A stretch of DNA of 64,000 nt from contig NZ_MCIB01000009.1 of NCBI RefSeq assembly GCF_003609645.1, forward strand, positions 1-64,000, written 5' to 3'. Of this stretch, positions 48,778 to 64,000 are shown piece after piece. Origin of the DNA: Thermohalobacter berrensis. Lineage in GTDB: Bacteria > Bacillota > Clostridia > Tissierellales > Thermohalobacteraceae. Below the pieces are notes generated by a model that was given only the letters and a program-made list of their open reading frames with translations, had not been told where the DNA came from and searched no databases. Position 1 is the first letter of the stretch. Every line of letters starts with the position of its first letter. The translations under genes and the position numbers were made by a program.

Positions 48778-50442
48778 ATGAGATCTAAACGTTTTGAAAT
48801 ATTAGAAAAACGTCCTGTAAATCAAGATGGCTTTGTTAAAGAATGGCCTGAAGTTGGCATGATTGCTATGAATAGCCCTAATGACCCTAAACCTAGTATT
48901 AAAATTGAAAATGGTAGAATTGTTGAATTAGACGGAAAAAAAAGAGAAGAATTTGATATGATAGATCGTTTTATTGCTGATTATGGAATTAATATAGATA
49001 TAGCTGAAGAAGTAATTAAAATGGATTCTACCGAGTTAGCAAAAATGCTTGTTGATATAAATGTTCCAAGAGAAAAAATAATAGAACTAACTACAGCAAT
49101 GACACCTGCTAAGATTGTAGAGGTTGTAAGTTCTCTTAATGTAGTTGAGATGATGATGGCACTTCAAAAAATGAGAGCTAGGAAAACACCATCTAATCAA
49201 TGTCATGTTACTAATTTAAAAGATAATCCAGTTCAAATAGCAGCCGATGCAGCAGAAGCTGCTATAAGAGGTTTTGACGAACAAGAAACTACAGTTGGTA
49301 TTGTTCGATATGCTCCTTTTAATGCATTAGCTCTACTTGTTGGTTCTCAAGTTGGACGGGGAGGGGTTCTTACCCAATGTGCAATTGAAGAAGCTACTGA
49401 ATTATTATTAGGGATGAGAGGACTTACTTCTTATGCTGAAACCGTATCTGTCTATGGAACTGAACAAGTATTTATAGATGGAGACGATACACCTTGGTCA
49501 AAAGCATTTTTAGCTTCTGCATATGCATCAAGAGGTTTAAAGATGAGGTTTACATCAGGAACAGGATCTGAAGTATTAATGGGATTTGCAGAAGGTAAAT
49601 CTATGCTTTATTTAGAAGCTAGATGTATTTATATTACAAAGGCAGCTGGTGTTCAAGGACTTCAAAACGGATCAATAAGTTGTATTGGTGTACCAGGTGC
49701 AGTTCCATCAGGAATTAGGGCAGTACTAGCTGAAAATCTTATAACTACAATGTTAGATCTTGAAGTAGCCTCTGGTAATGACCAAACATTTTCACACTCT
49801 GACATTAGAAGAACAGCTAGGACGCTTATGCAGATGTTACCAGGTACTGATTTTATTTTTTCAGGCTATAGTGCTGTTCCAAACTACGATAATATGTTTG
49901 CTGGTTCTAATTTTGATGCTGAAGATTTTGATGACTACAACATCTTGCAAAGAGATTTAATGGTGGATGGTGGATTAAAACCAGTGACAGAAGAAGAAGT
50001 TATTGCAATAAGAAATAAAGCTGCGAAAGCATTACAAGTTGTTTTCGATGAATTAGGATTACCTCCTATTACAGATGAAGAAGTAGAAGCTGCTACATAC
50101 GCTCATGGAAGTAAAGATATGCCTGAGAGAAATGTCATTGAAGATCTTAAGGCAGCTGAAGATATGATGAATAAAGGCATTACTGGATTAGATGTCGTTA
50201 AAGCATTAAGTAAACATGGATTTGAAGATGTAGCAGAAAATATACTAAATATGCTTAAACAAAGGATATCAGGAGATTATCTTCATACATCAGCTATTAT
50301 AGATAAGGATTTTAATGTTATAAGTGCAGTTAATGATTGTAATGATTATAAGGGACCAGGTACAGGATATAGAATTAGCAAAGAAAGATGGAAGGAAATA
50401 AAAGATATCCCAAATGCGAAAAGCGCAACTGATTTTGAATAA
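48778..50442 (+). CDS. pduC: B12-dependent propanediol dehydratase, large subunit PduC
   Basis: 554 residues, the same length as the Klebsiella oxytoca alpha subunit. It has the TIM-barrel active-site residues at matching numbers: His143, Glu170, Glu221, Gln296, Asp335 and Ser362. With adenosylcobalamin it turns 1,2-propanediol into propionaldehyde inside the microcompartment; the homologous glycerol dehydratase has the same layout, and glycerol may also be used. AAAGGAGG precedes the ATG. The medium and small subunits follow, so the holoenzyme is encoded in full. Confidence 0.97.
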   Translation: MRSKRFEILEKRPVNQDGFVKEWPEVGMIAMNSPNDPKPSIKIENGRIVELDGKKREEFDMIDRFIADYGINIDIAEEVIKMDSTELAKMLVDINVPREKIIELTTAMTPAKIVEVVSSLNVVEMMMALQKMRARKTPSNQCHVTNLKDNPVQIAADAAEAAIRGFDEQETTVGIVRYAPFNALALLVGSQVGRGGVLTQCAIEEATELLLGMRGLTSYAETVSVYGTEQVFIDGDDTPWSKAFLASAYASRGLKMRFTSGTGSEVLMGFAEGKSMLYLEARCIYITKAAGVQGLQNGSISCIGVPGAVPSGIRAVLAENLITTMLDLEVASGNDQTFSHSDIRRTARTLMQMLPGTDFIFSGYSAVPNYDNMFAGSNFDAEDFDDYNILQRDLMVDGGLKPVTEEEVIAIRNKAAKALQVVFDELGLPPITDEEVEAATYAHGSKDMPERNVIEDLKAAEDMMNKGITGLDVVKALSKHGFEDVAENILNMLKQRISGDYLHTSAIIDKDFNVISAVNDCNDYKGPGTGYRISKERWKEIKDIPNAKSATDFE

Positions 50443-50469
50443 AAAGCGATTAGAAAGGAGGAAAATAGT

Positions 50470-51135
50470 TTGAAAATTGATGAAAAATTAATTCGTCAAA
50501 TTGTTGAGGAAGTATTAACAGAGTTTAATGACAAGGAAAAGGAAGAGAGATCAGAAATTGAATTAGAGAAAAATTATGGAGGAAAAAGTAATTTTCAACT
50601 AAAGGAAGTAGGAGTAGCTAAAAAGGGAAAAAGAAAAGATGAAGTTGTGATAGGTATAGCACCAGCCTTTGGAAAATATCAGAATAAAACAATTATAGGT
50701 TTACCTCACACTGATGTACTAAGGGAAGTTATTGCTGGTATTGAAGAAGAAGGATTAAAAGCAAGAGTTGTGAGAATTTTAAGAACATCAGATGTAGCAG
50801 CTATAGCCCATGATGCATCTAAATTAAGTGGGTCAGGAATAGGGATAGGATTACAATCTAAAGGTACAACAGTAATTCATCAAAAGGACCTTTTATTATT
50901 AAGTAATTTAGAACTTTTCCCTCAAGCACCTTTATTAAGTAAAGAAGTTTATAGGATGATAGGTAAAAATGCAGCTAAATATGCAAAGGGTGAATCACCT
51001 AATCCTGTACCAACAAAAAATGACCAAATGGCTAGACCAAAATATCAGGCCATAGCAGCCTTATTACATATAAAGGAAACTCAATATGTTGACCCTGAAA
51101 AAAAACCGATAGAATTGAACTTCAATCTTGATTAA
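50470..51135 (+). CDS. pduD: propanediol dehydratase, medium subunit PduD
   Basis: 221 residues (family about 224). The N-terminus [18 protein letters not shown] is an amphipathic encapsulation helix, followed by a linker of about 35 residues and the beta subunit core [29 protein letters not shown], which helps hold B12. TTG start with AAAGGAGG upstream. It sits between pduC and pduE, touching the next gene's ribosome binding site. Confidence 0.95.
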
Positions 51136-51149
51136 TGGAGGTGAATATT

Positions 51150-51680
51150 ATGATTCAAGAGCAGAGGATAGAGGAAATTGTAAGGGAAGTATTAAAGTCA
51201 ATGACAGATAATGAAGCACAAGAGAAAACTATGGAACATCCAAAAAGAAAAATCAAAGAAAAGCCTAATATTGATGCAAAAAGAGATTATCCTTTAGCAA
51301 CTAAAAGACCTGACTTAATAAAAACCCCTACAAATAAAAGTCTTGATGAAATTACTATAAAAGGGATTTTAAATGGAAATATAAGACCTACAGATGTAAG
51401 AATTTCAAAAGAAACATTACAGTTACAAGCTAAAATAGCTGAAAGTGTAGGTAGAGATGCATTTGCTAGGAATCTAAAAAGAGCAGCTGAATTAATAGAG
51501 ATTCCTGATGAAAGAATTCTTGAAATATATAATGCTTTAAGACCCTACCGTTCTACTAAAGAGGAATTAATGGAAATAGCTGATGAATTAGAAGAAAAGT
51601 ATGATGCTAAAATAAATAGTCAATTTATTAGAGAAGCTGCAGAAATATATGAAAAAAGGAACAGATTAAAAAAGGAGTAG
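51150..51680 (+). CDS. pduE: propanediol dehydratase, small subunit PduE
   Basis: 176 residues (family about 173). The N-terminal helix EQRIEEIVREVLKSM is again encapsulation-like; the core contains RDYPLATKRPDLIKTPTNKSLDEIT and ALRPYRSTKEELMEIADELE. ATG at 51150 has GGAGGTG seven bases upstream, and the 51135 ATG lies before that site. With PduC and PduD it makes the dehydratase. Confidence 0.95.
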   Translation: MIQEQRIEEIVREVLKSMTDNEAQEKTMEHPKRKIKEKPNIDAKRDYPLATKRPDLIKTPTNKSLDEITIKGILNGNIRPTDVRISKETLQLQAKIAESVGRDAFARNLKRAAELIEIPDERILEIYNALRPYRSTKEELMEIADELEEKYDAKINSQFIREAAEIYEKRNRLKKE

Positions 51681-51719
51681 AAAAACTGGAATAACTATTA
51701 CTATCCAGGAGGTATAAAC

Positions 51720-53558
51720 ATGAAACTGATAGCAGGAGTTGATATTGGAAATGACACAACTGAGACATCGTTAGCTAAAATAGATGACTTTGGTAATGTT
51801 AGTTTTCTTGCAAGTGGCATAGTTAAGACAACTGGTATTAAAGGAACAAAAGAAAATATACATGGAATATTTTCTTCATTAAAGCAAGTAGTTGACAAAG
51901 CTAATCTAAAAATATCAGATATTGACTTGATCAGAATTAATGAAGCAGCTCCAGTTATAGGTGATGTTGCAATGGAGACTATAACAGAAACTATAATAAC
52001 TGAATCTACAATGATTGGGCATAATCCCTCTACACCTGGTGGTGTGGGACTTGGTGTAGGTTGCACAATTAGAATAGAGGATTTAATAAATAAGCAAGGT
52101 AATGATTCATACATAGTGGTTATATCAAAAAATATTGATTTTAGTGATGCAGCGAGAATTTTAAATAAAGCTTTTAAGCATGGAATAGATATTCAAGGTG
52201 CAATAGTACAAAAAGATGACGGAGTACTTATTAGTAATAGAATAGAAAGAAAAATTCCTATAGTTGATGAAGTAGAACTAATTGAAAAAGTTCCCATAGG
52301 AATGAAAGCTGCAATAGAAGTAGCCCCTACTGGTGGAGTTGTTGAAGTTTTATCTAACCCCTATGGCATTGCAACAGTTTTTGATCTTGATTCATCAGAA
52401 ACCAAAATGGTAGTACCTATTGCTAGAGCACTTATTGGGAATAGATCAGCAGTTGTTATAAAAACCCCTAAAGGTGATGTTAAGGAAAGAAGAATACCTT
52501 CTGGAAAAATACATATTATTGGACAAAAAAGGAGAAAATCAGTTAATGTTGATGATGGTGCTAGTACAATAATGAAAATACTAAAAACATGTTCTCCAAT
52601 TATCGACATAAAAGGTGAACCTGGTACAAATGCAGGTGGAATGTTAGAACGTGTAAGACAGGTGATGTCAAAGCTTACAAAACAACATCCTAATTCAATT
52701 AAAATACAAGATCTATTAGCAGTTGATACTTTCATTCCTCAGATAGTTAAAGGAGGACTTGCTGGAGAATTTTCTATGGAAAATGCTGTAGGGATTGCAG
52801 CTATGGTAAAGGCTGATAGACTACAAATGAAAGTGATTGCAGATATATTGCAGTCAAAACTAAATATTGAGGTTGAAGTAGGAGGAGTAGAAGCTGATAT
52901 GGCTATAAGAGGTGCTTTAACTACTCCAGGTAGCAATGTTCCTTTAGCTATATTAGATATGGGAGCAGGTTCAACTGATGCATCTTTAATAAATAGAGAT
53001 GGAGAAATTCAATCAATACATTTAGCTGGAGCTGGGAATATGGTCACCATGATTATTAATACAGAATTAGGATTGGAAGATATAGAATTAGCTGAAAATA
53101 TTAAAAAATATCCATTGGCTAAAGTTGAAAGTTTATTTCACATAAGACATGAGAATGGTTCAATACAATTCTTTGAAGAACCTCTTCCACCTGAGGTATT
53201 TGCAAAGGTTATAATTTTAAAAAAAGATAAAATGATACCTATTCCTAAGGAAATTTCTATAGAAAAGATTAAATCAGTAAGGAAAAAAGCAAAAGAAGAA
53301 GTTTTTGTTACTAATTGCATTAGGGCCTTAGAGAAAGTATCACCAACCGGTAATATTAAAAATATTGAATATGTAGTATTAGTGGGGGGATCAGCTCTAG
53401 ATTTTGAAATTCCTCAATTAGTAACTGATGCATTATCAAGATATGGAATAGTAGCAGGTAGAGCAAATGTAAGAGGGAAAGAAGGACCTAGAAATGCAGT
53501 TGCTACTGGGTTAATATTGGTTTATAAAGAAGGGATTTATTCATATGACCAAAAATAA
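51720..53558 (+). CDS. pduG: diol dehydratase reactivase, large subunit PduG
   Basis: 612 residues. The N-terminal ATPase begins IAGVDIGNDTTETSLAKI; LDMGAGSTDASLI and VVLVGGSALDFEIPQL complete the ASKHA phosphate and adenosine motifs. ADP/ATP-driven exchange removes damaged cobalamin from the dehydratase. Start at ATG with CAGGAGG upstream. It overlaps pduH by 14 bases. Confidence 0.95.
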   Translation: MKLIAGVDIGNDTTETSLAKIDDFGNVSFLASGIVKTTGIKGTKENIHGIFSSLKQVVDKANLKISDIDLIRINEAAPVIGDVAMETITETIITESTMIGHNPSTPGGVGLGVGCTIRIEDLINKQGNDSYIVVISKNIDFSDAARILNKAFKHGIDIQGAIVQKDDGVLISNRIERKIPIVDEVELIEKVPIGMKAAIEVAPTGGVVEVLSNPYGIATVFDLDSSETKMVVPIARALIGNRSAVVIKTPKGDVKERRIPSGKIHIIGQKRRKSVNVDDGASTIMKILKTCSPIIDIKGEPGTNAGGMLERVRQVMSKLTKQHPNSIKIQDLLAVDTFIPQIVKGGLAGEFSMENAVGIAAMVKADRLQMKVIADILQSKLNIEVEVGGVEADMAIRGALTTPGSNVPLAILDMGAGSTDASLINRDGEIQSIHLAGAGNMVTMIINTELGLEDIELAENIKKYPLAKVESLFHIRHENGSIQFFEEPLPPEVFAKVIILKKDKMIPIPKEISIEKIKSVRKKAKEEVFVTNCIRALEKVSPTGNIKNIEYVVLVGGSALDFEIPQLVTDALSRYGIVAGRANVRGKEGPRNAVATGLILVYKEGIYSYDQK

Positions 53559-53898
53559 AGTATGCATAAATATATATTATTCAACAAAATTAAATAATAT
53601 TTTAAAATTTCAACAATTGTTATTAGGAATTGAAGAAGAAGGAATACCATATAAAATAGTAAAAAAATCAGAGACATCAGCTGTAAAGCTTGGGTATGAA
53701 GCTTGCATAAGTTCACAGTTAAATGTTGGAATAGGTATTGGATGTGATGAAAAGGTTGTAGTTCATTATGCAAAATTACCTCTGAAAAAGCCATTATTTA
53801 ACATAGATACAAAGGATAATATTAATATTTTAAGAATTTTGGGATCAAATGCTGCTAGATTGGTTAAAGGGGTTCCGTTTAAAGTCCTAAAAAGTTAA
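53545..53898 (+). CDS. pduH: diol dehydratase reactivase, small subunit PduH
   Basis: 117 residues (family about 116). The core, GIGIGCDEKVVVHYAKLPLKKPLF, resembles the beta-subunit core of the dehydratase, as the reactivase docks by swapping subunits. It overlaps the pduG end by 14 bases; translation is coupled. A 100-base gap follows before the shell gene at 53999, in which I see no gene. Confidence 0.93.
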   Translation: MTKNKVCINIYYSTKLNNILKFQQLLLGIEEEGIPYKIVKKSETSAVKLGYEACISSQLNVGIGIGCDEKVVVHYAKLPLKKPLFNIDTKDNINILRILGSNAARLVKGVPFKVLKS

Positions 53899-53998
53899 AG
53901 CATTAAAAATTCTTCTTTCTCAAAAAGAGAAAACTATTACATTAAAAAGAATTGATAAATTGACCTCAAGAAAAGTACCTCAAAGGAGGTGATAATCA

Positions 53999-54529
53999 TT
54001 GAAATTAGCATTAGGCATAATTGAAACTGTAGGACTTGCAGCGGCAATCGAAGCAGCAGATACATCTGTTAAATCTGCTAATGTTAAACTCCTAGGATAT
54101 GAGTTGTCAAGGGGTGGGGGATTGGTAACAGTCAAAATAGAAGGAGATATAGGAGCTGTTAATGCAGCAGTTAAAGCAGGGGTTAAAGCGGCAGAAAGAG
54201 TTAATAAAGTATGGAGTAAAAAGGTTATTCCTAGGCCTCATAAAGAATTAAGCATACTTATACAAACTAAAGAAACTATCGGTTTAACTAAAAAAAATAA
54301 AAAGTGCACAAATTTAACTATTAAAAATAAAGAAGAAATCACAAAAAAACAAGTTGAAGTAGGTGCCAATAAGGAAGAACTAGAAAATGAACAAAATAAA
54401 TTGAATGATGCAAATAAATCAAATGAAATTTGCAACCTATGTGGTGATCCAAAATGTCCAAGAAAAAAGGGTGAGTTAAAAATAAAATGTATACATTTTA
54501 AAAAAGAAGGGGGAGTAAATAATGGGTGA
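53999..54529 (+). CDS. pduK: BMC shell protein PduK-like with Cys-rich tail
   Basis: 176 residues. One BMC domain ([24 protein letters not shown], with a longer, Gly-rich pore loop SRGGG) is followed by a Lys/Glu/Asn-rich linker and a C-terminal [14 protein letters not shown]...KIKC motif. Such a tail occurs in PduK and may bind metal or a cluster. TTG start with AAAGGAGGTGA upstream. It overlaps pduJ by eight bases. Confidence 0.87.
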
Positions 54530-54824
54530 TGCTTTAGGTATGATTGAGACAAAAGGCTTAGTTGGCGCTATTGAAGCAGGTGATGCTATGGTTAAATCAG
54601 CGAACGTAGAACTTATAGGTTATGAAAAGATTGGTTCAGGTCTTGTTACAGTGATGGTAAGAGGAGATGTAGGAGCTGTAAAAGCAGCAACAGATGCAGG
54701 GGCAGCAGCTGCCGATAAAGTAGGGGAGTTAACTTCAGTACATGTTATACCTAGACCTCATATGGACACTGAAAAAATATTACCTCAAGGAGATAATAAA
54801 AAAACTACTAAAGAAGGGAAATAA
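54522..54824 (+). CDS. pduJ: BMC-H hexameric shell protein PduJ
   Basis: 100 residues. It is almost the same as the PduA-like protein over the BMC domain ([40 protein letters not shown]), with a short Lys-rich tail. Hexameric shell tile. Its start lies within the end of pduK and the gap to pduL is five bases. Confidence 0.94.
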
Positions 54825-54829
54825 AAAAT

Positions 54830-55477
54830 ATGAGTTATTGTGATGAGAAGATAGTTAATGAAGTTACCAAAAAAGTTCTAAAAAAAATTAAAAAATATGA
54901 AAGTAATAATTATATTCCTATAGGAGTTTCAAATAGACATATTCATCTTTGTAGAAAAGATTTAAATCTACTTTTTGGTTTAGGGTATAGATTAACAAAA
55001 TTAAAGGATTTAAACCAGCCAGGTCAGTTTGCAGCAAAAGAAACAGTGACCATAATAGGACCTAAAGGTATTATTGAGAATGTAAGAATTCTAGGACCGT
55101 TAAGGAATAACACTCAAGTAGAAATTTCCTTAAATGATGGTTTTAAGTTAGGAGTTAAGCCACCAGTTAGAGAATCAGGAAATTTAGAAAATACTCCAGG
55201 AATTTTTGTTAAAGGACCAAAGGGAGTTGTTGAGTTAAAAAGGGGGGTAATAGCAGCATTAAGACATATACATATGCCAAAAGATTATGCTGCAAAATTT
55301 GGTTTTAAGGATAAGCAAATGGTTAGTGTAATAAATAACAATATAAGAAAAGTTACCTTTCATAATGTTTTAATTAGAGTTTCAGATAAATACAATCTGG
55401 AAATGCATATAGATATTGATGAGGCTAACTGTTGTGGATTAAGCAATGGTGATAAAGTAAAAATACTTAAAAATTAA
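54830..55477 (+). CDS. pduL: phosphate propanoyltransferase PduL
   Basis: 215 residues. Metal-binding histidines appear in GVSNRHIHLCRKDL and AALRHIHMP, with LEMHIDIDEAN. It converts propionyl-CoA and phosphate to propionyl phosphate and frees CoA inside the shell. The N-terminus DEKIVNEVTKKVLKKIKKY is an encapsulation-like helix. No clear ribosome binding site is separate from the pduJ end (GAAGGG), so it may be coupled to pduJ. Confidence 0.94.
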   Translation: MSYCDEKIVNEVTKKVLKKIKKYESNNYIPIGVSNRHIHLCRKDLNLLFGLGYRLTKLKDLNQPGQFAAKETVTIIGPKGIIENVRILGPLRNNTQVEISLNDGFKLGVKPPVRESGNLENTPGIFVKGPKGVVELKRGVIAALRHIHMPKDYAAKFGFKDKQMVSVINNNIRKVTFHNVLIRVSDKYNLEMHIDIDEANCCGLSNGDKVKILKN

Positions 55478-55489
55478 AGGGGATCTAAA

Positions 55490-56314
55490 ATGGACGTATC
55501 AAGAGTAAATGAATATATTGAAAGTTTTTACAGTTTAATTAATAAAGAAGAAAAAATAGAAAATTTATCACAAAACTTGAAAGTAGGTGTTGATTTAGGA
55601 ACTGCTAATATAGTAATTTCAGTGTTAGATGAAAATAATAAACCGATTACTGGGATGTTATACCCCGCATCTGTTGTTAGAGATGGCTTGGTAGTTGATT
55701 ATATAAAAGCTGTAGAAATAGTAAAAAAATTAAAGTTGAGAATAGAAAAAATGTTAGGGGTCAATTTAGAATATTCAGCTACAGCTGTTCCACCAGGAAC
55801 AATTGATGGAAATGCTAAAGTTATTGCTAATGTTATAGAGGCTGCTGAAATGGAAGTTATAAAAATAATAGATGAACCTACAGCTGCTGCCAAGGTTCTA
55901 GGAATTATGGATGGTGTAGTTGTAGATGTAGGGGGAGGAACAACAGGTATAAGTATTTTAAAGGATGGTAAAGTAATCCATACAGCAGATGAACCAACAG
56001 GCGGGGTTCATATGAGTCTAGTATTGGCTGGTAGTTATAATATTTCTTTTGATGAGGCTGAAAAAATGAAAAAAGACCGTAGAAGGGAGAAGGAAATATT
56101 TCATGTAGTTAGACCAGTAATTGAAAAAATGGTATCTATTGTGAAAAAACATATAGAAGGATATTCAATTGACAAGATTTATGTGGTAGGTGGTGCATGT
56201 AGTTTTGCCCAGTTCGAAAATATATTTTCTAATAAATTGGGAATAGAGACAGTTAAACCCAAAAGACCCCTCTTAGTTACTCCATTGGGTATAGCTCAAA
56301 GCTGTGAAAAGTGA
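55490..56314 (+). CDS. eutJ: EutJ-family Hsp70-like ATPase
   Basis: 274 residues of the actin/Hsp70 ATPase fold, phosphate motif VGVDLGTANIVISVLD, phosphate 2 VVDVGGGTTGISIL, and adenosine VVGGACSFAQFENIF. EutJ is the presumed chaperone or reactivase-like factor of ethanolamine microcompartments, also found in clostridial pdu loci. GGGG upstream of the ATG. It lies between pduL and the flavoprotein gene. Confidence 0.92.
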   Translation: MDVSRVNEYIESFYSLINKEEKIENLSQNLKVGVDLGTANIVISVLDENNKPITGMLYPASVVRDGLVVDYIKAVEIVKKLKLRIEKMLGVNLEYSATAVPPGTIDGNAKVIANVIEAAEMEVIKIIDEPTAAAKVLGIMDGVVVDVGGGTTGISILKDGKVIHTADEPTGGVHMSLVLAGSYNISFDEAEKMKKDRRREKEIFHVVRPVIEKMVSIVKKHIEGYSIDKIYVVGGACSFAQFENIFSNKLGIETVKPKRPLLVTPLGIAQSCEK

Positions 56315-56324
56315 GGTGAACGTA

Positions 56325-57086
56325 TTGAATTATGAGCAATTAGTTAATTTCTTGGTTAAAGAAGTGTTAAACAGACTTCAAAATGAGCCTAAGAGGGGCT
56401 TAGTTATATATACTGGAGGGAGTATAGGGTTTAAAGAAGCTAACGATCAAATTAAGAAATTACTTAGAAGTAATTGGGATTTAACTGTTTTGTTATCGAG
56501 GGGAGCAGAAAAACTTCTAACTGCGGAACTTATTAAAAGAAAGCTTGGAATAGATTGTGGTTTAACAGATATAGATATTAAAGATGTAAATAATTTAGTA
56601 AATGATATAGAAATTATTATTGTTCCAATATTAACTATTAATACTGCTGCTAAAATTGCTATGGGAATAAGAGATAGCTTAACAACATATATAATATCTT
56701 CTGCTATAATTAAAGGAATTCCAATAATAGCAGCTAAAGATTCATGCAAAGTAGGAGATTCTTTTAGTTTTAGTAAAGCCCCTAAAGCTTATGTAAATAT
56801 GATAAAAAATCATCTTAAAAGATTGGAGGATTATGGTATAAAGTTAGTCAGAGCTAATCAACTTTATAAAACTACTATAAATTCTAGTATACGTAATAAA
56901 TTTGCGGTGCAATTAGAGGATGATTCAAGTTGTAAACTCAATAAAAAAGTTATTACTAGAGAAGATCTAATAAAATTAAAAAATAAAAAAAAGAAAGTTT
57001 TTGTTAGAAAGGATTGTATTATAACTTCATTGGCAGAAGAGCTTGCTAGAGATACTGGAATAGAAATTGTGAGGAAATTTGATTAG
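56325..57086 (+). CDS. microcompartment flavoprotein with PduM-like ends
   Basis: About 253 residues. The middle ([51 protein letters not shown]) follows the Dfp/PF02441 flavoprotein fold. The N-terminal [15 protein letters not shown] and the C-terminal [27 protein letters not shown] resemble, from memory, the ends of Salmonella PduM. TTG at 56325 has GAGGTG upstream and is preferred over an earlier ATG inside eutJ. It probably sits in the microcompartment lumen; its reaction is unknown. Confidence 0.8.
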
Positions 57087-57097
57087 GTGGGATAAAT

Positions 57098-57367
57098 ATG
57101 TATTTAGCTAGGGTTGTAGGAAATGTTGTTTCCACTCAAAAAAATCAAAGTCTAATTGGAAAAAAGTTATTGATAGTGCAACAAGTTAATGCCCAATGTC
57201 ATCCTATTGGAGAGATAGAGATAGCTGTGGACTCTGTTGGAGCTGGAGCAGGAGAAATCGTTTTAATTTCAGCAGGTAGTTCAGCTAGACAAGTATTTGA
57301 AAATGAGAATATACCTACAGATAAAGCAATAGTAGGTATTGTAGACCATTTGGAAGTAAATCAATAA
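57098..57367 (+). CDS. pduN: BMC-P pentameric vertex protein PduN
   Basis: 89 residues of the EutN/CcmL family: [27 protein letters not shown], then [21 protein letters not shown] and [11 protein letters not shown]. It closes the vertices of the polyhedral shell. The gap to the flavoprotein gene is 11 bases. Confidence 0.95.
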
Positions 57368-57379
57368 GGAAGTGATGTA

Positions 57380-58366
57380 ATGACTAAATTATATACTAGA
57401 ACAGGTGACCATGGAGAAACAGCATTGTATGGAGGTACTAGAATTTCTAAAGATGACTTAAGAGTAAGCTGTTATGGAACAATAGATGAATTAAATTCAA
57501 TGATAGGAGTGGCATATTCCTTAATTAAAAATAAAGAAATTAAAAAGATTTTAAATACTATACAAAATAATTTATTTTTATTGGCAGCAGAAATAGCAAG
57601 TGATAAAAATGGTTTAGAAAAGCTTAGAGAAGTAGTAGATAATTCAGAAATTTTATATTTAGAAGAAATTATAGATAAATTTCAAAAAAGAGTAGGAGAT
57701 ATAAATGGTTTCACAATACCAGGAAAAAACACATCTTCTTCTATTCTTCATGTTGCAAGAACAATAACTAGAAGAGCTGAGAGATTAACAGTAAAACTTA
57801 GCAAACAAATAACTATAAGGAGTACAGTTATTAAGTATTTAAATAGATTATCAGATTTATTATATATTTTAGCAATTATTGAAGCAAAGTCTCAAGTTAT
57901 AGATAAAATTAAAGACAAAGTTATAAAAAGAATAAATAGTAGGTTTGATAAAAATCTTTTAAATTTAGAAATAGCAAAAAAAATGGCAAGAGGTGCAGAA
58001 AATAAAGCAAGAGAGATAGGAGTTGCTATAGTTTTTTCAGTAGTTGATTCTGGTGGTAACCTATTACTCTTACATAGAATGAATAATACAATGTTAGCTA
58101 GTATTGATATTTCAATTAACAAAGCATATACAGCTGTAGCATTAAGGATACCTACAAATGAAGTGATGTCGCTAGTACAGCCAGGTAAAGAATTATATGG
58201 GATTCAAAATACAGATAATAGAATTATTACATTTGGAGGTGGTTTTCCTCTTAAATTAAATGGGGAAATAATAGGAGGAATCGGTATAAGTGGCGGAACG
58301 GTTGAACAGGATGTTGAAATTGGTCTTGAAAGTATAAAAGTTTTTGAATTAGAGAAGGGGGGATAA
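57380..58366 (+). CDS. pduO: ATP:cob(I)alamin adenosyltransferase PduO (with GlcG/HbpS-like domain)
   Basis: 328 residues. The N-terminal half is the trimeric adenosyltransferase: YTRTGDHGETALYGGTRISKDD and, near 125-150, RTITRRAERLTVKL. The C-terminal 150 residues form the GlcG/HbpS-like (DUF336) domain (MARGAENKAREIGVAIVFSVVDSGGNLLLLHRM), in other PduO proteins reported to bind haem or cobalamin. It makes adenosylcobalamin for the dehydratase. It ends two bases before pduP. Confidence 0.93.
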   Translation: MTKLYTRTGDHGETALYGGTRISKDDLRVSCYGTIDELNSMIGVAYSLIKNKEIKKILNTIQNNLFLLAAEIASDKNGLEKLREVVDNSEILYLEEIIDKFQKRVGDINGFTIPGKNTSSSILHVARTITRRAERLTVKLSKQITIRSTVIKYLNRLSDLLYILAIIEAKSQVIDKIKDKVIKRINSRFDKNLLNLEIAKKMARGAENKAREIGVAIVFSVVDSGGNLLLLHRMNNTMLASIDISINKAYTAVALRIPTNEVMSLVQPGKELYGIQNTDNRIITFGGGFPLKLNGEIIGGIGISGGTVEQDVEIGLESIKVFELEKGG

Positions 58367-58367
58367 A

Positions 58368-59771
58368 ATGGCTGTACTTGAAAATCAAATAGATGAAATT
58401 GTAAGAAAAGTTGTAAAAGAGTTAAAGAAAACAGAAAACACGGAGATTTCTAAAGGAAATAAATTCGGAGTATTTGAAGATATGAATAAAGCTATTGAGG
58501 CTGCGGCTTTAGCCCAAAAAAAATTTAAAGATTATAGCTTAGAATATAGGGAAAAAATTATTAATTCTATGAGGGAAGAAATAAGGAAAAATATTAAATA
58601 TCTATCTAGATTAGCCTTTGAGGAAACACAAATGGGAAGATATGAAGATAAAATAAAGAAAAATAAGCTAGTTATAGAAAAAACACCAGGAGTAGAAGAT
58701 TTAAAATCAGAGGTTTTTACTGGGGATAACGGTTTAACTTTGCTTGAGTTATCTCCATATGGTGTTATCGGGGCAATTACCCCATCAACAAATCCAACAG
58801 AAACAATTATCTGCAATTCTATTGGTATGATAGCTGCTGGTAATGCAGTTGTATTTAGCCCACATCCTAGAGCAAAGAACGCATCTATTACAACTATTGA
58901 AATATTAAATGAAGCTATAGAAAAAGCAGGTGGTCCTAAAAATTTAATTGTAACAGTAAGTGATCCTAATATTGAAAAAGCCCAGGTAATGATGGAACAT
59001 GAAAAAATTGATATGATTGTTGCTACTGGAGGCCCCGGGGTTGTAAAAGCAGCCTTATCTTCTGGTAAAAAAGCAATAGGTGCGGGAGCAGGAAATCCGC
59101 CAGTTGTAGTTGATGAGACTGCAGAAATAGAAAAAGCTGCTAAAGATATAATTGAAGGATGTAGTTTTGATAATAATTTACCTTGTATTGCTGAAAAAGA
59201 GGTTGTTGTAGTAGATAACGTAGCAGATTACTTAATTTTTTGTATGAAACAGAACAATGCATTATTAATAGAAGATAGAAAAGATTTAAATAGATTAGAA
59301 AAGTTAATCTTAGAGCCTGATGGAAAACCTAATAAAGATTATATAGGAAAGAATGTTAGTTATATTTTAAAAAAAGCAGGTATAGAATGTGAAGATTCGG
59401 TAAAAGTAGCCATAATGGAAGTCGATAAAAATCATCCTTTTTTCAAAGAAGAATTAATGATGCCAATATTACCAATTGTTAGAGCTAAAGATGTAGATGA
59501 AGCAATTAAAATGGCGATAGAAGCTGAAGGAGGCAATAGGCATACAGCTATAATGCATTCAAAAAATATAGATAACTTAACAAGATTTGCAAAAGAAATA
59601 AAAACAACGGTTTTTGTAAAAAATGGGCCTTCATTTGCTGGTATTGGATTTGGTGGTGAAGGTTTTACGACTTTTACTATTGCAGGACCTACAGGCGAAG
59701 GCTTAACTTCACCTAGAAGTTTTACTCGTAAAAGAAGATGTGTTTTAGTTGGTGGTTTTACAATTAAGTAG
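58368..59771 (+). CDS. pduP: CoA-acylating propionaldehyde dehydrogenase PduP
   Basis: 467 residues, aldehyde dehydrogenase fold without the usual extra domain. The catalytic Cys is in SFDNNLPCIAEKEVVVVD, and GVIGAITPSTNPTETIICN is the NAD-binding region. The N-terminus ENQIDEIVRKVVKELKKT is a classic encapsulation peptide. It turns propionaldehyde, NAD and CoA into propionyl-CoA. The stop overlaps the longest pduS frame, but the real pduS start is downstream. Confidence 0.96.
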   Translation: MAVLENQIDEIVRKVVKELKKTENTEISKGNKFGVFEDMNKAIEAAALAQKKFKDYSLEYREKIINSMREEIRKNIKYLSRLAFEETQMGRYEDKIKKNKLVIEKTPGVEDLKSEVFTGDNGLTLLELSPYGVIGAITPSTNPTETIICNSIGMIAAGNAVVFSPHPRAKNASITTIEILNEAIEKAGGPKNLIVTVSDPNIEKAQVMMEHEKIDMIVATGGPGVVKAALSSGKKAIGAGAGNPPVVVDETAEIEKAAKDIIEGCSFDNNLPCIAEKEVVVVDNVADYLIFCMKQNNALLIEDRKDLNRLEKLILEPDGKPNKDYIGKNVSYILKKAGIECEDSVKVAIMEVDKNHPFFKEELMMPILPIVRAKDVDEAIKMAIEAEGGNRHTAIMHSKNIDNLTRFAKEIKTTVFVKNGPSFAGIGFGGEGFTTFTIAGPTGEGLTSPRSFTRKRRCVLVGGFTIK

Positions 59772-59787
59772 AATTGAGGGATATATT

Positions 59788-61128
59788 ATGGGGAAAGATT
59801 TATTGCAATTGGTAAAGGAAGCCGGTGTAGTTGGTGCCGGTGGAGCTGGATTCCCTACTCATGTTAAGCTAAGCGGAAAGGCTGAATATGTTATTGTAAA
59901 TGGTGCTGAGTGTGAGCCCTTATTGAGAGTTGATCAGCAGTTATTGGCATATAAAACTCAAAAAATACTAAGCACATTGGATATTGTAGTAAATAAGGTT
60001 GGAGCAAAAAAAGGTATAATCGCTTTAAAAAAGAAATATAAGAGAGCAATTGAGAGTTTAAAAAAATATAAAGGAAAATATGAAAATATAGAATTATTTA
60101 CTTTAGAAGATTTTTATCCTGCGGGGGATGAACAGGTTACTGTTTATGAGGCATTAAATAGAGTTATACCAGAAGGTGGAATTCCTCTAGATGTAAAAGT
60201 TATTGTTATAAATGTTGAAACAATACTTAACGTTTTTAATGCATTAAAGGGTAAATCAGTTACAGAGAAATATGTTACAGTAACAGGAGTTGTAAAAAAT
60301 CCTTTGACGGTAAAAGTAGCAATTGGAACTAGAATTTTAGATATAATAAAATTAGTAGGTGGAACGACTATTGAAGACTTCCAAGTGATAGAAGGCGGTC
60401 CAATGATGGGGACAGTTATAAAAGATATAAATGAACCTATTAAGAAAACTACAAAAGGTATAATAGTTCTGCCTAAAAATCATACAATTTTAATTTCCAA
60501 AAATAAAAATTTAGAAAAAGTACTAAAGGAGGCTCGAATAGCCTGTTGCTATTGCTCATTATGTACTGAAGTTTGTCCTAGAAATTTATTGGGACACAAA
60601 CTTTATCCTGATAAAATGATGAAAGCATTTTCATATTGCAATTTTTCTCAATGGAAGTTATCAATTACAGATGCTAATCTTTGTAGTGAATGTAGATTAT
60701 GTGAACAAGCTTGTATAATGGGACTTCAACCGTGGAAACTGAATAAATTTTTAAAAAATAAATTAAAAAAAGAAGGAATAAGAAATACTAACAGGAAAAA
60801 ATCAAATAATGTTAATCCTTTTAGAGAATACAGAAAATATCCAATAAAAAAATTAATATATAAATTAGGAATCCAACAATATAATGTTGAAGCACCTTTA
60901 AAAGAAGACTTAAAGTTAAATATTAATTTTGTAATAATACCATGTAAACAGCATATAGGTCAGAAGGCATATCCAATAGTAAAAAAAGGAGATAATGTTA
61001 GTAAAGGGCAAAAAATTGCAAAGATAAAAGGCAACAATCTAGGAGCTTTAATTCATGCTAGTGTAGATGGTATTGTTGAGAAAGTTAATGAAGATGCCAT
61101 ATTAATAAAAAAATCACATATCATATAA
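59788..61128 (+). CDS. pduS: cobalamin reductase PduS (RnfC-like)
   Basis: About 446 residues. The RnfC-like N-terminus (GVVGAGGAGFPTHVKLSG, YVIVNGAECEPLLRVDQQL) binds FMN and NADH. SLBB and two [4Fe-4S] motifs follow: CCYCSLCTEVCPRNLLGH and CSECRLCEQACIMGLQ, then a barrel-sandwich hybrid (SVDGIVEKV). It passes electrons from NADH to cob(II)alamin or into the lumen. ATG at 59788 has GAGGGA upstream; the earlier frame to 59749 lies in pduP. Confidence 0.93.
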   Translation: MGKDLLQLVKEAGVVGAGGAGFPTHVKLSGKAEYVIVNGAECEPLLRVDQQLLAYKTQKILSTLDIVVNKVGAKKGIIALKKKYKRAIESLKKYKGKYENIELFTLEDFYPAGDEQVTVYEALNRVIPEGGIPLDVKVIVINVETILNVFNALKGKSVTEKYVTVTGVVKNPLTVKVAIGTRILDIIKLVGGTTIEDFQVIEGGPMMGTVIKDINEPIKKTTKGIIVLPKNHTILISKNKNLEKVLKEARIACCYCSLCTEVCPRNLLGHKLYPDKMMKAFSYCNFSQWKLSITDANLCSECRLCEQACIMGLQPWKLNKFLKNKLKKEGIRNTNRKKSNNVNPFREYRKYPIKKLIYKLGIQQYNVEAPLKEDLKLNINFVIIPCKQHIGQKAYPIVKKGDNVSKGQKIAKIKGNNLGALIHASVDGIVEKVNEDAILIKKSHII

Positions 61129-61162
61129 TGTTTTTAATATATATGAAAGAGGCGATTTTTAA

Positions 61163-61708
61163 GTGAAAGCACTGGGATTATTAGAATTTAAGAGTATAGG
61201 AAAAGGGGTAGAAGCAACAGATCAGATGATTAAATCAGCAAACGTAAAATTGTTGCTTGCTACGCCGATGTGTCCAGGAAAATATATATCAATTATATCA
61301 GGAAATATAGAAGCTATAAAAAATGCAGTAGAAACAGGTAAAAAAGTTGGAGATATATTTACAGTCTGTGATTATGTAATATCAAATGTACACGAAGGCG
61401 TTTATTCAGCTTTAACAGCAACAACTAATATAGAAGAAGTTAATTCATTAGGGATCATTGAAACTATGTCCTCTATATCAGCGATAATGGCAGGAGATAT
61501 TGCTTTAAAGTCTGCAAATATTGAGTTATTAGAAATTCGTATAGCTAGGGGATTAGGGGGCAAGGGATTTGTACTTATAGCTGGAGAATTATCTTCTGTT
61601 GAATCATCAGTTAAAGCAAACGAAAGTAAGTTGGGACCAAGGGGAGAAATTATAAGCTCTGTTGTTGTTGCTTCCCCAACTAAAGAACTAATTTCCCAAT
61701 TATATTAA
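61163..61708 (+). CDS. pduT: BMC-T shell protein PduT-like, cluster Cys absent
   Basis: 181 residues with two BMC domains (ALGLLEFKSIGKGVEATDQM, then SLGIIETMSSISAIMAGDIALKSA). Only two cysteines occur, C37 (MCPGKYI) and C69. Salmonella PduT binds a [4Fe-4S] at the three-fold axis through Cys108 in its second domain. The aligned residue here is Ala107, so the shell electron path may be lost or altered. GTG start with GAGGCG upstream. Last gene of the operon before a terminator. Confidence 0.9.
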   Translation: MKALGLLEFKSIGKGVEATDQMIKSANVKLLLATPMCPGKYISIISGNIEAIKNAVETGKKVGDIFTVCDYVISNVHEGVYSALTATTNIEEVNSLGIIETMSSISAIMAGDIALKSANIELLEIRIARGLGGKGFVLIAGELSSVESSVKANESKLGPRGEIISSVVVASPTKELISQLY

Positions 61709-61713
61709 TAAAT

Positions 61714-61747
61714 CCAAAACTCTCAGTTTTAAACTGGGAGTTTTTTT
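61714..61747 (+). terminator. terminator of the pdu operon
   Basis: AAAACTCTCAG and CTGGGAGTTTT pair (one G-T) around TTTTAAA, with a T-run. It ends the microcompartment transcript. Confidence 0.85.
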
Positions 61748-61911
61748 ATTGCTTAATGTTAAAAAAATTTTCATTTATAACATAGCTTTTTTAAAAAATA
61801 AGTCAAACTAAGCAGGATTATTTTGAATTAAAAAGAAGTTTTTAGTAAATAATATATAAATAGGTTAAAATTAGAAAATAGAGGTAAGGTTAAAGAAAAA
61901 GGAGGGAATGT

Positions 61912-64000
61912 ATGAACTCATTTACCAAATATGTAAATCCATATATAGGTGAGCTTTTAGAAATTATTAAAATGGATAAGTCATTTATAAGGGGAGAGGG
62001 AACTAGATTATATGATGATAAAGGAAATGAATATCTAGATTTTATAGCAGCTTATGGTGCTTTACCATTTGGATATAATCCAAATGAGATATGGGAGACT
62101 ATAGATAACTTTAAAAAATCAAAGGAACCTAGTTTTATTCAACCATCAGCCTTGAATGCAGCAGGTGAATTAGCTAAAAAACTTATAGAAGTTACACCTG
62201 AAGAATTAAAATATGTAACATTTACAAATAGTGGAGCTGAAACTGTAGAAGCGGGAATAAAGTTATGTCGTTCGGCAACTGGTAGAAAGGGAATACTATC
62301 TACTATTAATAGTTTCCATGGTAAGACCCTTGGAGCCCTTTCAGCTACTGGTAAGAAAAGCTATCAAGATGGATTCGGTGCTCCTGCAGATGGATTTAAT
62401 TTCATTGAATATGGTAATTTAGAAGCATTAGAGAATGAACTTAAAGAAAAGCCAGATTATTATGCAGCATTTATTATAGAACCAATTCAAGGAGAAGGAG
62501 GTATTGTTGAACCTCCAAAGGGTTATCTAAAAGGTGCTAAAGAAATATGTAAAAAATATGGAGTGAAGCTAATAGTAGATGAAATACAAACTGGTTTAGG
62601 AAGAACAGGAAGATTATTTGCATTTGAAGAAGAAGGAGTTTGTCCAGACGTATTGCTATTGGCAAAGGCTTTAAGTGGAGGGATTATACCAATAGGTGCA
62701 TGTATAGCAACAGAAGAAGTATATAATTCAGATTTTGGTAATAAGCACTCATCAACATTTGCTGGGAATTCTTTAGCTTGTAGAGTTGGAATTAAGGTTT
62801 TGGATATATTAAGTAATACAGATACTATTAAAGAAGCCAAAAGAAAGGGAGAAATCCTAAAGGAAGGCCTTAACAGGCTAAAGGAAAAATATCCTGATAT
62901 TATTAAGTCAGTAAGAGGAAGAGGCTTAATGTTGGGGATAGAATTTTGTGAAAAAAAGGATATATTTCCAGGTAGTTTTATAGGTATAATGGCAGAGCAA
63001 AAGCTTTTAACACCTATTATTTCAAGCTATCTTTTAAATGTTGAAAAATTGAGGGTTGCCCCAACCTTAAATGGAGAAAATGTAATAAGAATAGAGCCAC
63101 CTCTTATTGTAACTGAATCTGAATGTTATGAAGCATTAAACAAAATTGAAAGTATGTTAGAAGTATTAAATAGAAAGAATACAGCAGAGTTTTTATCATA
63201 TTTAATAAATGTAGATAAAAGTAAAAGAGAATATAAAGAAGTTGAATCAAGAGAAATAAAAGAGGTTGAGGTAAAAGAAAAGGATGAAAGATTTGCTTTT
63301 TTAATACATCCTTTAGATTTAAAAAATTATACAGACTATGATAAAAGTCTATTATCCTTTAATAATAATGAGCTTGCTGAACTTACAAGTAAATGGGGGG
63401 ATATAGTAGAGCCATTTGTTGTATCTAGTACAAGAATTGTATCTAAAAGTGGCAAAACTGCATATGGTGAATTTATTGTAGTTCCAAGGACAGCAGAAGA
63501 GTTTGTAAAAATACCAAAAAGTCAAGTGGTATATGAGCTAAAAAAAGCTGTAAACCTTGCTAAAAAAAGAGGAGCCAAAATAGTTGGATTAGGTGCATAT
63601 ACTTCAGTTGCATCAGGGGGAGGACTACTATTAAAGGATGAGGGAATTCCTCTAACTACTGGAAATAGTTATACTATTGTAGCAGCGGTAGAGGCAGTTA
63701 CAACAGCTTTAGAAAGATTAGGAACACAATCGGATGAATCTACTGCAGCAATTGTAGGGGCAACTGGTTCTATAGGAAGTGGAGTATCTATATTACTATC
63801 TGAAAAAGTATCAAAGCTAGTGCTTATAGGTAATCCTAAGAATAAAAAATCTAGTATAAAAAGACTTAAAAAACTTACTGCTAAAATATTTAAACATATT
63901 TCTAAAATGAAAGAAGAAGGAAAGCAATTTAGACCAGGTAGTTTAGGATATAAAATTTCAAACTTACGTAATTTACCACTATCTAATGAACCTATAAAGA
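61912..64000 (+). CDS. class III aminotransferase fused to acyl-ACP-reductase-like Rossmann region, 3' end missing
   Basis: The frame stays open from ATG 61912 (AGGAGGG seven bases upstream) to the window edge, at least 696 codons. Residues about 1-430 are a class III PLP aminotransferase: NSGAETVEAG, IIEPIQGEGGIVEPP, DEIQTGLGRTG and PLP-Lys252 in LLLAKALSGG. After a Lys/Glu-rich linker the second part (about 460-696) has PFVVSSTRIVSKSGKTAYGEF and the NAD(P) loop GATGSIG at 616-622, like cyanobacterial acyl-ACP reductases. A reductase making an aldehyde, which a transaminase turns into an amine, is plausible but unproven. Confidence 0.75.
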   Translation, partial: MNSFTKYVNPYIGELLEIIKMDKSFIRGEGTRLYDDKGNEYLDFIAAYGALPFGYNPNEIWETIDNFKKSKEPSFIQPSALNAAGELAKKLIEVTPEELKYVTFTNSGAETVEAGIKLCRSATGRKGILSTINSFHGKTLGALSATGKKSYQDGFGAPADGFNFIEYGNLEALENELKEKPDYYAAFIIEPIQGEGGIVEPPKGYLKGAKEICKKYGVKLIVDEIQTGLGRTGRLFAFEEEGVCPDVLLLAKALSGGIIPIGACIATEEVYNSDFGNKHSSTFAGNSLACRVGIKVLDILSNTDTIKEAKRKGEILKEGLNRLKEKYPDIIKSVRGRGLMLGIEFCEKKDIFPGSFIGIMAEQKLLTPIISSYLLNVEKLRVAPTLNGENVIRIEPPLIVTESECYEALNKIESMLEVLNRKNTAEFLSYLINVDKSKREYKEVESREIKEVEVKEKDERFAFLIHPLDLKNYTDYDKSLLSFNNNELAELTSKWGDIVEPFVVSSTRIVSKSGKTAYGEFIVVPRTAEEFVKIPKSQVVYELKKAVNLAKKRGAKIVGLGAYTSVASGGGLLLKDEGIPLTTGNSYTIVAAVEAVTTALERLGTQSDESTAAIVGATGSIGSGVSILLSEKVSKLVLIGNPKNKKSSIKRLKKLTAKIFKHISKMKEEGKQFRPGSLGYKISNLRNLPLSNEPIK

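Follow-up and report, generated by a model that had tools for sequence, protein, structure and literature searches.

What does a single polypeptide do that joins a class III aminotransferase to a domain resembling acyl-ACP reductases (AAR)? Such a frame opens on the forward strand of contig NZ_MCIB01000009.1 of Thermohalobacter berrensis, near the end of the 64,000-nt stretch analysed here (the window, C9:1–64000 of genome G000, which comprises 2.76 Mb in 40 contigs). The frame starts at 61912 and continues beyond 64000; in the contig sequence (to 71569), its stop codon lies at 64522–64524, giving a protein of 870 aa. A preliminary description of the window had recognised one frame with a class III aminotransferase, a linker and Rossmann patterns, and we found the linker, VVSSTRIVSKSG and GATGSIG (616–622) all present. 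That the frame is unfinished in the window was correct; the additional domains it had allowed for were not found in the 870-aa protein, because the AAR match reaches residue 864 of 870. Past 64000, the reductase domain runs to completion before the stop, so that an early stop, which would have spoken against a reductase, did not occur. The gene and its parts are as follows.

61716–61744, + strand: terminator-like hairpin of 13 pairs (4 G-C) with a T-rich tail (1 found against a shuffle mean of 0.2)
61900–61905, + strand: AGGAGG, ribosome-binding-site-like by sequence, directly 5' of the start codon
61912–64000, stop at contig position 64524, + strand: transaminase–AAR (TA-AAR) fusion gene, from the open frame and its extension in the contig
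61912–63201, + strand: class III PLP aminotransferase domain, residues 1–430, limit approximate (Pfam PF00202)
62665–62667, + strand: Lys252, PLP Schiff-base lysine, role by homology
63202–63288, + strand: Lys/Glu-rich linker, residues about 431–459, by sequence
63289–64000 and beyond, + strand: acyl-ACP-reductase-like (COG5322-type) domain, residues 460–864, from profile matches and the fold of a homologue
63757–63777, + strand: dinucleotide-binding loop GATGSIG, residues 616–622
63832–63834, + strand: Asn641, replacing the NADPH-phosphate-binding Arg189 of AAR

The N-terminal half is a class III aminotransferase: residues 27–416 match Pfam Aminotran_3 (PF00202) with 314.2 bits against a cut-off of 30.5 (E 1.5e-93), and the active-site lysine is in place. 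This is Lys252, the Lys of LLAKAL, as the preliminary description had it. We aligned catalytic residues in 84 complete fusions of more than 800 aa, leaving aside fragments with an open end, three copies of the window's locus (L001, L004, L075) and L068 (765 aa), whose frame breaks within the AAR part. Both Lys252 and Asp223 were identical in 84/84; L031 contains 138 X residues, its row reading X at two checked transaminase columns. The best Pfam and NCBIfam stretches listed all fall outside the linker. Structure was predicted for a homologue from Lutispora saccharofermentans (L023) that is 63% identical to the window part of the protein (full model, mean pLDDT 88), and its transaminase half best matched PigE (Z 51.5, rmsd 1.8, 408 aligned), tied with scaffolds built on the putrescine aminotransferase YgjG. 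Since the whole-chain fold search was dominated by this half, the reductase half was modelled and searched separately.

Is the C-terminal half an acyl-ACP reductase? Against NCBIfam, residues 460–870 matched TIGR04058, the model for AAR, at E 1.9e-25 and that for PigE at E 5.9e-52. The protein is a relative and not a member of the cyanobacterial long-chain AAR equivalog (TIGR04058, 89.9 bits against a cut-off of 449.7), and it falls outside the PigE equivalog (NF053554, 569.6 bits against 850), its domain order being opposite. Profile comparison of residues 460–864 with solved structures matched PigE and cyanobacterial AAR; one further match, to a designed barrel (E 0.00099), was taken as chance. 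Glycines 616, 619 and 622 of the GxxGxxG motif and Cys800 are invariant in the same 84 fusions, so that PLP lysine, glycine motif and AAR cysteine occur together in every aligned chain, the window's included. Cys800, which lies with the last part of the domain outside the window (past 64000), aligns with Cys294 of cyanobacterial AAR, the residue reported to carry the acyl group (PMC7089970). The AAR half of L023, modelled alone (pLDDT 90), matched cyanobacterial AAR 6jzy with Z 38.1 and rmsd 2.5 over 326 aligned residues, then the carmabin-pathway TAD (PDB 9e50 and relatives, Z 35.9), the following family reaching only Z 14.5 among the matches listed; the AAR fold superfamily (6JZU/6JZY) is thus assigned on this homologue rather than on the window's own chain. 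The AAR identity first suggested from the letters alone therefore agrees with both the profile search from residue 460 onward and the structure prediction.

The complete protein, with an N-terminal transaminase and a C-terminal AAR-like domain in one chain, is of the published TamH/KecF/TfFusion kind, which is itself already known; new here are the single clade of fused AAR domains, the lost arginines described below, the terminator and a genome that lacks an AMP-binding enzyme. PtTamH of Pseudoalteromonas tunicata, which we compared by its published description, has the same order of transaminase and AAR, the catalytic Lys and Cys, and the same conversion of acyl thioester to amine; it is reported to make the C12 amine of tambjamine from acyl-ACP, with NADH only and without use of C12-CoA in the assays described (PMC9594044). 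It sits in a pigment cluster with the adenylation–ACP protein TamA, whereas the window's gene has no such neighbours. Prout and colleagues reported transaminase activity for PpKTFusion, TfFusion, TmFusion and TsFusion, from Pseudomonas, Thermincola (T. ferriacetica) and Thermaerobacter, with transaminase before AAR as in the window's protein; the enzymes favoured long or aliphatic aldehydes and took glutamate, alanine or glutamine as amino donors (PMC10829540). KecF of the koreenceine pathway, likewise an aminotransferase with a COG5322 domain, sits in a polyketide-type cluster, its proposed task being the release of a polyketide aldehyde and the amination of that aldehyde (PMC6498172). In PigE of prodigiosin synthesis (PDB 4ppm), both domains are homologous to ours in reversed order, AAR then transaminase, and the published account gives evidence for thioester reduction as well as aldehyde amination (PMC8341465). 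Cyanobacterial AAR (PDB 6JZU, 6JZY) shares the fold, the GxxGxxG motif and the cysteine; it has no transaminase, is described as passing its aldehyde to ADO (PMC7089970), and its Arg189, Arg314 and Tyr247 are replaced in the window's protein. The carmabin TAD, about 18% identical and also solved with NAD/NADH according to its structure entries, has residue numbers near 1930–2301 that point to a large multidomain protein; our literature search found no publication on it.

What reaction does this architecture predict? Quite probably the protein is a stand-alone bifunctional enzyme that turns an acyl thioester into an amine, in the manner of TamH, KecF and TfFusion; we infer both reactions from published relatives. 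Given acyl-ACP (or acyl-CoA), Cys800 of the C-terminal AAR domain would pick up the acyl group, the resulting enzyme thioester would be reduced to an aldehyde by a nicotinamide cofactor, probably NADH, and the N-terminal transaminase, its PLP bound to Lys252, would convert the aldehyde into a primary amine, the amino group probably coming from glutamate. The enzyme may further take a medium- or long-chain substrate and channel the aldehyde, and its biological role may lie in the amine product. The single-chain route from thioester to amine that the preliminary description had imagined thus gains support by analogy, both steps having been reported for TamH and, with the domains reversed, for PigE.

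Which cofactor drives the reduction? In cyanobacterial AAR, Arg189, Arg193 and Arg314 are described as holding the NADPH phosphate (PMC7089970). Our profile alignment places Ser820 at Arg314 and Asn641 next in line at Arg189, the printed alignment stopping at 187; the Arg193 position was kept out of the comparison because the alignment is too loose there. At the Arg189 position none of the 76 fused domains has Arg or Lys (Asn in 76/76), against Arg in 29/31 and Arg or Lys in 30/31 stand-alone domains. At the Arg314 position Arg or Lys is again found in 0/76 fusions, and in 26/31 stand-alone domains. Eight plasmid-borne relatives divide along the same line: both places carry Arg in the three proteins of PigE order, unlike in the window's protein, and the five with the transaminase first have Asn (4) or Ser (1) at the Arg189 place and no Arg at that of Arg314. 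TamH yielded amine with NADH and none with NADPH in the reported assays (PMC9594044). Because both arginines are missing throughout the fusions and TamH is NADH-specific, the window's enzyme likely uses NADH as well, a correlation drawn from sequence and precedent; the NADPH first assumed for it is probably wrong. Absence of the two arginines would offer a simple sequence rule for NADH versus NADPH use. Arg651, 10 residues past Asn641 (Arg in 71/76 and Lys in 5/76 fusions), could bind the NADPH phosphate in place of the lost arginines.

Where would the acyl group come from? No fatty-acid genes lie beside the fusion gene in its own genome, and a dedicated adenylation–ACP partner like TamA, a trait of the cluster and not of the enzyme family, is absent. 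We found no AMP-binding match in the genome (a control search found the family in 12/14 known genomes), and one PP-binding and one ketoacyl synthase match, both in a single fatty-acid-synthesis operon that reads plsX-fabH-fabK-fabD-fabG-acpP-fabF-rnc (names from reading of the sequences). With no AMP-binding acyl activator and a single carrier protein, primary metabolism should supply the acyl thioester, and the one ACP of fatty-acid synthesis would be its simplest source. The same search in 40 of the 57 genomes in which we know of a fusion (54 from the phylum sample described below and three same-order relatives) gave no AMP-binding match in 14, the window's included, and a match in 26. Thus, a TamA-like partner is no general need, and the enzyme of the window and of the 13 other genomes may use ordinary cellular acyl thioesters. 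For other members such a partner or a natural-product role is possible, given the 26 genomes with AMP-binding enzymes and the report of distant orthologues in gene clusters of different types and of NRP/PKS-type clusters, likely for a prodiginine-type alkaloid, in the three thermophile genomes (PMC10829540).

Possibly, though we hold this with less than even confidence, lone NADH-driven enzymes of this kind in clostridia-like Bacillota draw acyl-ACP directly from the primary synthesis of fatty acids and make free aliphatic amines of it, with no natural-product cluster involved. If so, these bacteria would contain an undescribed class of aliphatic amines, serving as membrane components, signals or redox products. 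The proposal predicts aliphatic amines in clostridia-like bacteria; our literature search, which covered few subscription papers, found no report of them, nor a published physiological role for the lone Bacillota fusions. Enzymes of this kind, already described in pigment and alkaloid pathways, are sought as catalysts for fatty amines.

Need the acyl chain be long? Tyr247, described as lining the acyl tunnel of cyanobacterial AAR (PMC7089970), is the one pocket position we compared, and it is Arg in 76/76 fusions and in 28/31 stand-alone domains. The pocket therefore differs from that of cyanobacterial AAR, a long alkyl substrate is not assured, and judging from this residue the acyl group may be other than a plain long chain. 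The identical two domains might then convert a short or polar acyl thioester, such as a fermentation or dicarboxylic acyl-CoA, into a short amine or an omega-amino acid; both the altered tunnel and the nearness of the transaminase half to putrescine and acetylornithine aminotransferases would fit such a substrate. Upstream in the window, at 48778–61708, lies a Pdu-type microcompartment operon encoding a diol-dehydratase large subunit, shell proteins, a cobalamin adenosyltransferase, an aldehyde dehydrogenase and an RnfC-like protein. The diol dehydratase and aldehyde dehydrogenase of such microcompartments lead to propionyl-CoA, which this operon could provide. However, the terminator-like hairpin lies between the operon, whose last gene ends at 61708, and the fusion gene. 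Within about 19.5 kb around each of three same-order homologues, we found no relative of the four operon proteins searched (two shell proteins, the dehydratase and the aldehyde dehydrogenase), the sole weak hit being a MerR regulator (L164:1695–2456, E 1e-4). For these two reasons we rejected the link to the operon as a default. Assayed relatives also favour long or aliphatic aldehydes in the published tests (PMC10829540), and C12 acyl-ACP in that of TamH (PMC9594044). Overall, we consider a short or polar substrate unlikely and prefer the medium- or long-chain acyl thioester.

Could the chain run in the catabolic direction, the transaminase converting an amine into an aldehyde and the AAR domain the aldehyde into an acyl thioester? 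Transaminases are reversible, and the NCBIfam model next after PigE is that of putrescine aminotransferase, a catabolic enzyme. Against this, the roles characterised or proposed for the relatives in the published accounts are amine-making (PMC9594044, PMC8341465, PMC6498172), and AAR is described as a ping-pong reductase (PMC7089970). A catabolic role thus seems highly improbable to us beside synthesis of the amine.

That the Rossmann part might instead be a shikimate/quinate-dehydrogenase-like domain in a fusion of other function, as Pfam PF01488 could suggest (about 77 residues of the domain, above cut-off, E 4.8e-8), we rejected and give next to no credence, because the AAR and PigE models are far stronger and both match 44/44 scanned AAR-domain members, against just 6 for the shikimate dehydrogenase model, and because the catalytic Cys is kept and the fold is that of AAR. 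The preliminary description had named a better fit of shikimate dehydrogenase as the result that would count against it; no equivalog of that enzyme is among the 4 NCBIfam matches of residues 460–870 at E up to 0.001, and none appears in the best 50 fold matches listed, the latter carrying no weight alone.

How widespread is the fusion, and did it arise once? Full-length homologues of the 870-aa protein show 40–69% identity. A search of named genomes gave 60 loci, including Syntrophomonadaceae, Dethiobacter, Lutispora, Halanaerobiales, Limnochordia and Thermincola, with stand-alone relatives in other phyla. We sampled 398 genomes of the phylum: an AAR-like match at 1e-15 occurs in 232, and at least 54, the window's own included, have such a match in a fusion-sized open frame (860 aa or more); the weaker rows, among the matches listed, are mostly frames of about 360 aa. 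The domain is rare in the window's own order (4/249 genomes at 1e-30). For the tree, the cofactor and pocket columns and the comparison of the two halves we used 76 fusions, having removed 8 whose AAR domain duplicated that of another row, and 31 stand-alone domains, L065_14 being dropped for length and non-fused proteins above 450 aa (L071, L072_5, L073) never included. A tree built by a quick method with midpoint root groups the 76 fused AAR domains in a single clade (SH-aLRT 100) that excludes the 31 stand-alone ones. Within this clade, a Thermincola-type subclade of 15 adjoins the subclade of 61 that contains the window's enzyme; the T. ferriacetica homologues L056 and L057, in this neighbouring subclade, are 42% and 40% identical to the window's protein over full length. 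Distances of the transaminase and AAR domains correlate across the 76 fusions (rho 0.83; at most 0.18 in 200 label shuffles), which argues for a single fusion that was kept as a unit.

Do the fusions share a partner gene? The gene downstream of the window's fusion is on the opposite strand, and no universal partner was found, neighbours varying by lineage: M16 peptidases and ProS; a DegT-like aminotransferase, DapF and a glycerophosphodiester phosphodiesterase; DapB; an Mg-chelatase-like AAA and VWA pair; or DegV. DapB, DegV and the AAA/VWA pair were profile-scanned, the remaining names come from reading of the sequences, and genes were called crudely as longest open frames; one locus taken as fused (L143) shows no AAR among these calls. 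Among 53 fusions with both neighbours visible, 17 lack a neighbour on the same strand within 100 bases; the other 36 may therefore be co-transcribed with something. In L028, L032 and L034–L054 (various Bacillota, two Limnochordia), the genes that follow the fusion include one for a DegT-like aminotransferase in 13 loci, for a DapF-like epimerase in 9 and for a phosphodiesterase in 12; a DapB protein follows it in five loci of this set, others or the same ones.

Several related chains are built differently. In an Acidobacteriota locus (L070:4386–9248), a 1620-aa chain combines AMP-binding, phosphopantetheine carrier, class III transaminase and AAR domains; it could be a single-chain counterpart of TamA plus TamH that converts a free acid into an amine. 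Phmmer searches with its adenylation and ACP parts (E up to 1e-3) against the neighbours in 86 loci, 20 of them stand-alone AAR loci, found L070 alone, single-sequence searches being able to miss distant relatives. A Leisingera plasmid (L145:7959–12146) encodes a 1395-aa TA-AAR protein with about 530 additional C-terminal residues, near an adenylate-forming enzyme, pabB and an MMPL transporter. Two Bdellovibrionales proteins of 696 aa (Bacteriovoracaceae; L071:2453–4543, L073:222–2312) have about 320 residues with no assigned domain ahead of the AAR.

A stand-alone AAR-like protein of 360 aa, with no transaminase, recurs in a gene row of its own (L105–L124, e.g. L111:7883–9498, and L127:9413–11418) with coaX, dusB, a 176-aa helix-turn-helix-like protein (cl1), a 305-aa protein (cl3), greA and lysS, names read from the sequences. 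Counted anywhere in 20 stand-alone AAR loci, cl1 occurs in 16, cl3 and lysS in 15 each, dusB in 14, and coaX and greA in 13 each; one cl1 and one cl3 protein scanned gave no Pfam match. The AAR of this row is likely an aldehyde maker. In L127 (6428–11418) a fusion gene is inserted into the row, and the stand-alone AAR beside it lacks the catalytic Cys, the sole such case among the 31 stand-alone domains. In L141 (4865–8813), the gene of a cl1-type protein immediately precedes a TA-AAR fusion and shares its strand.
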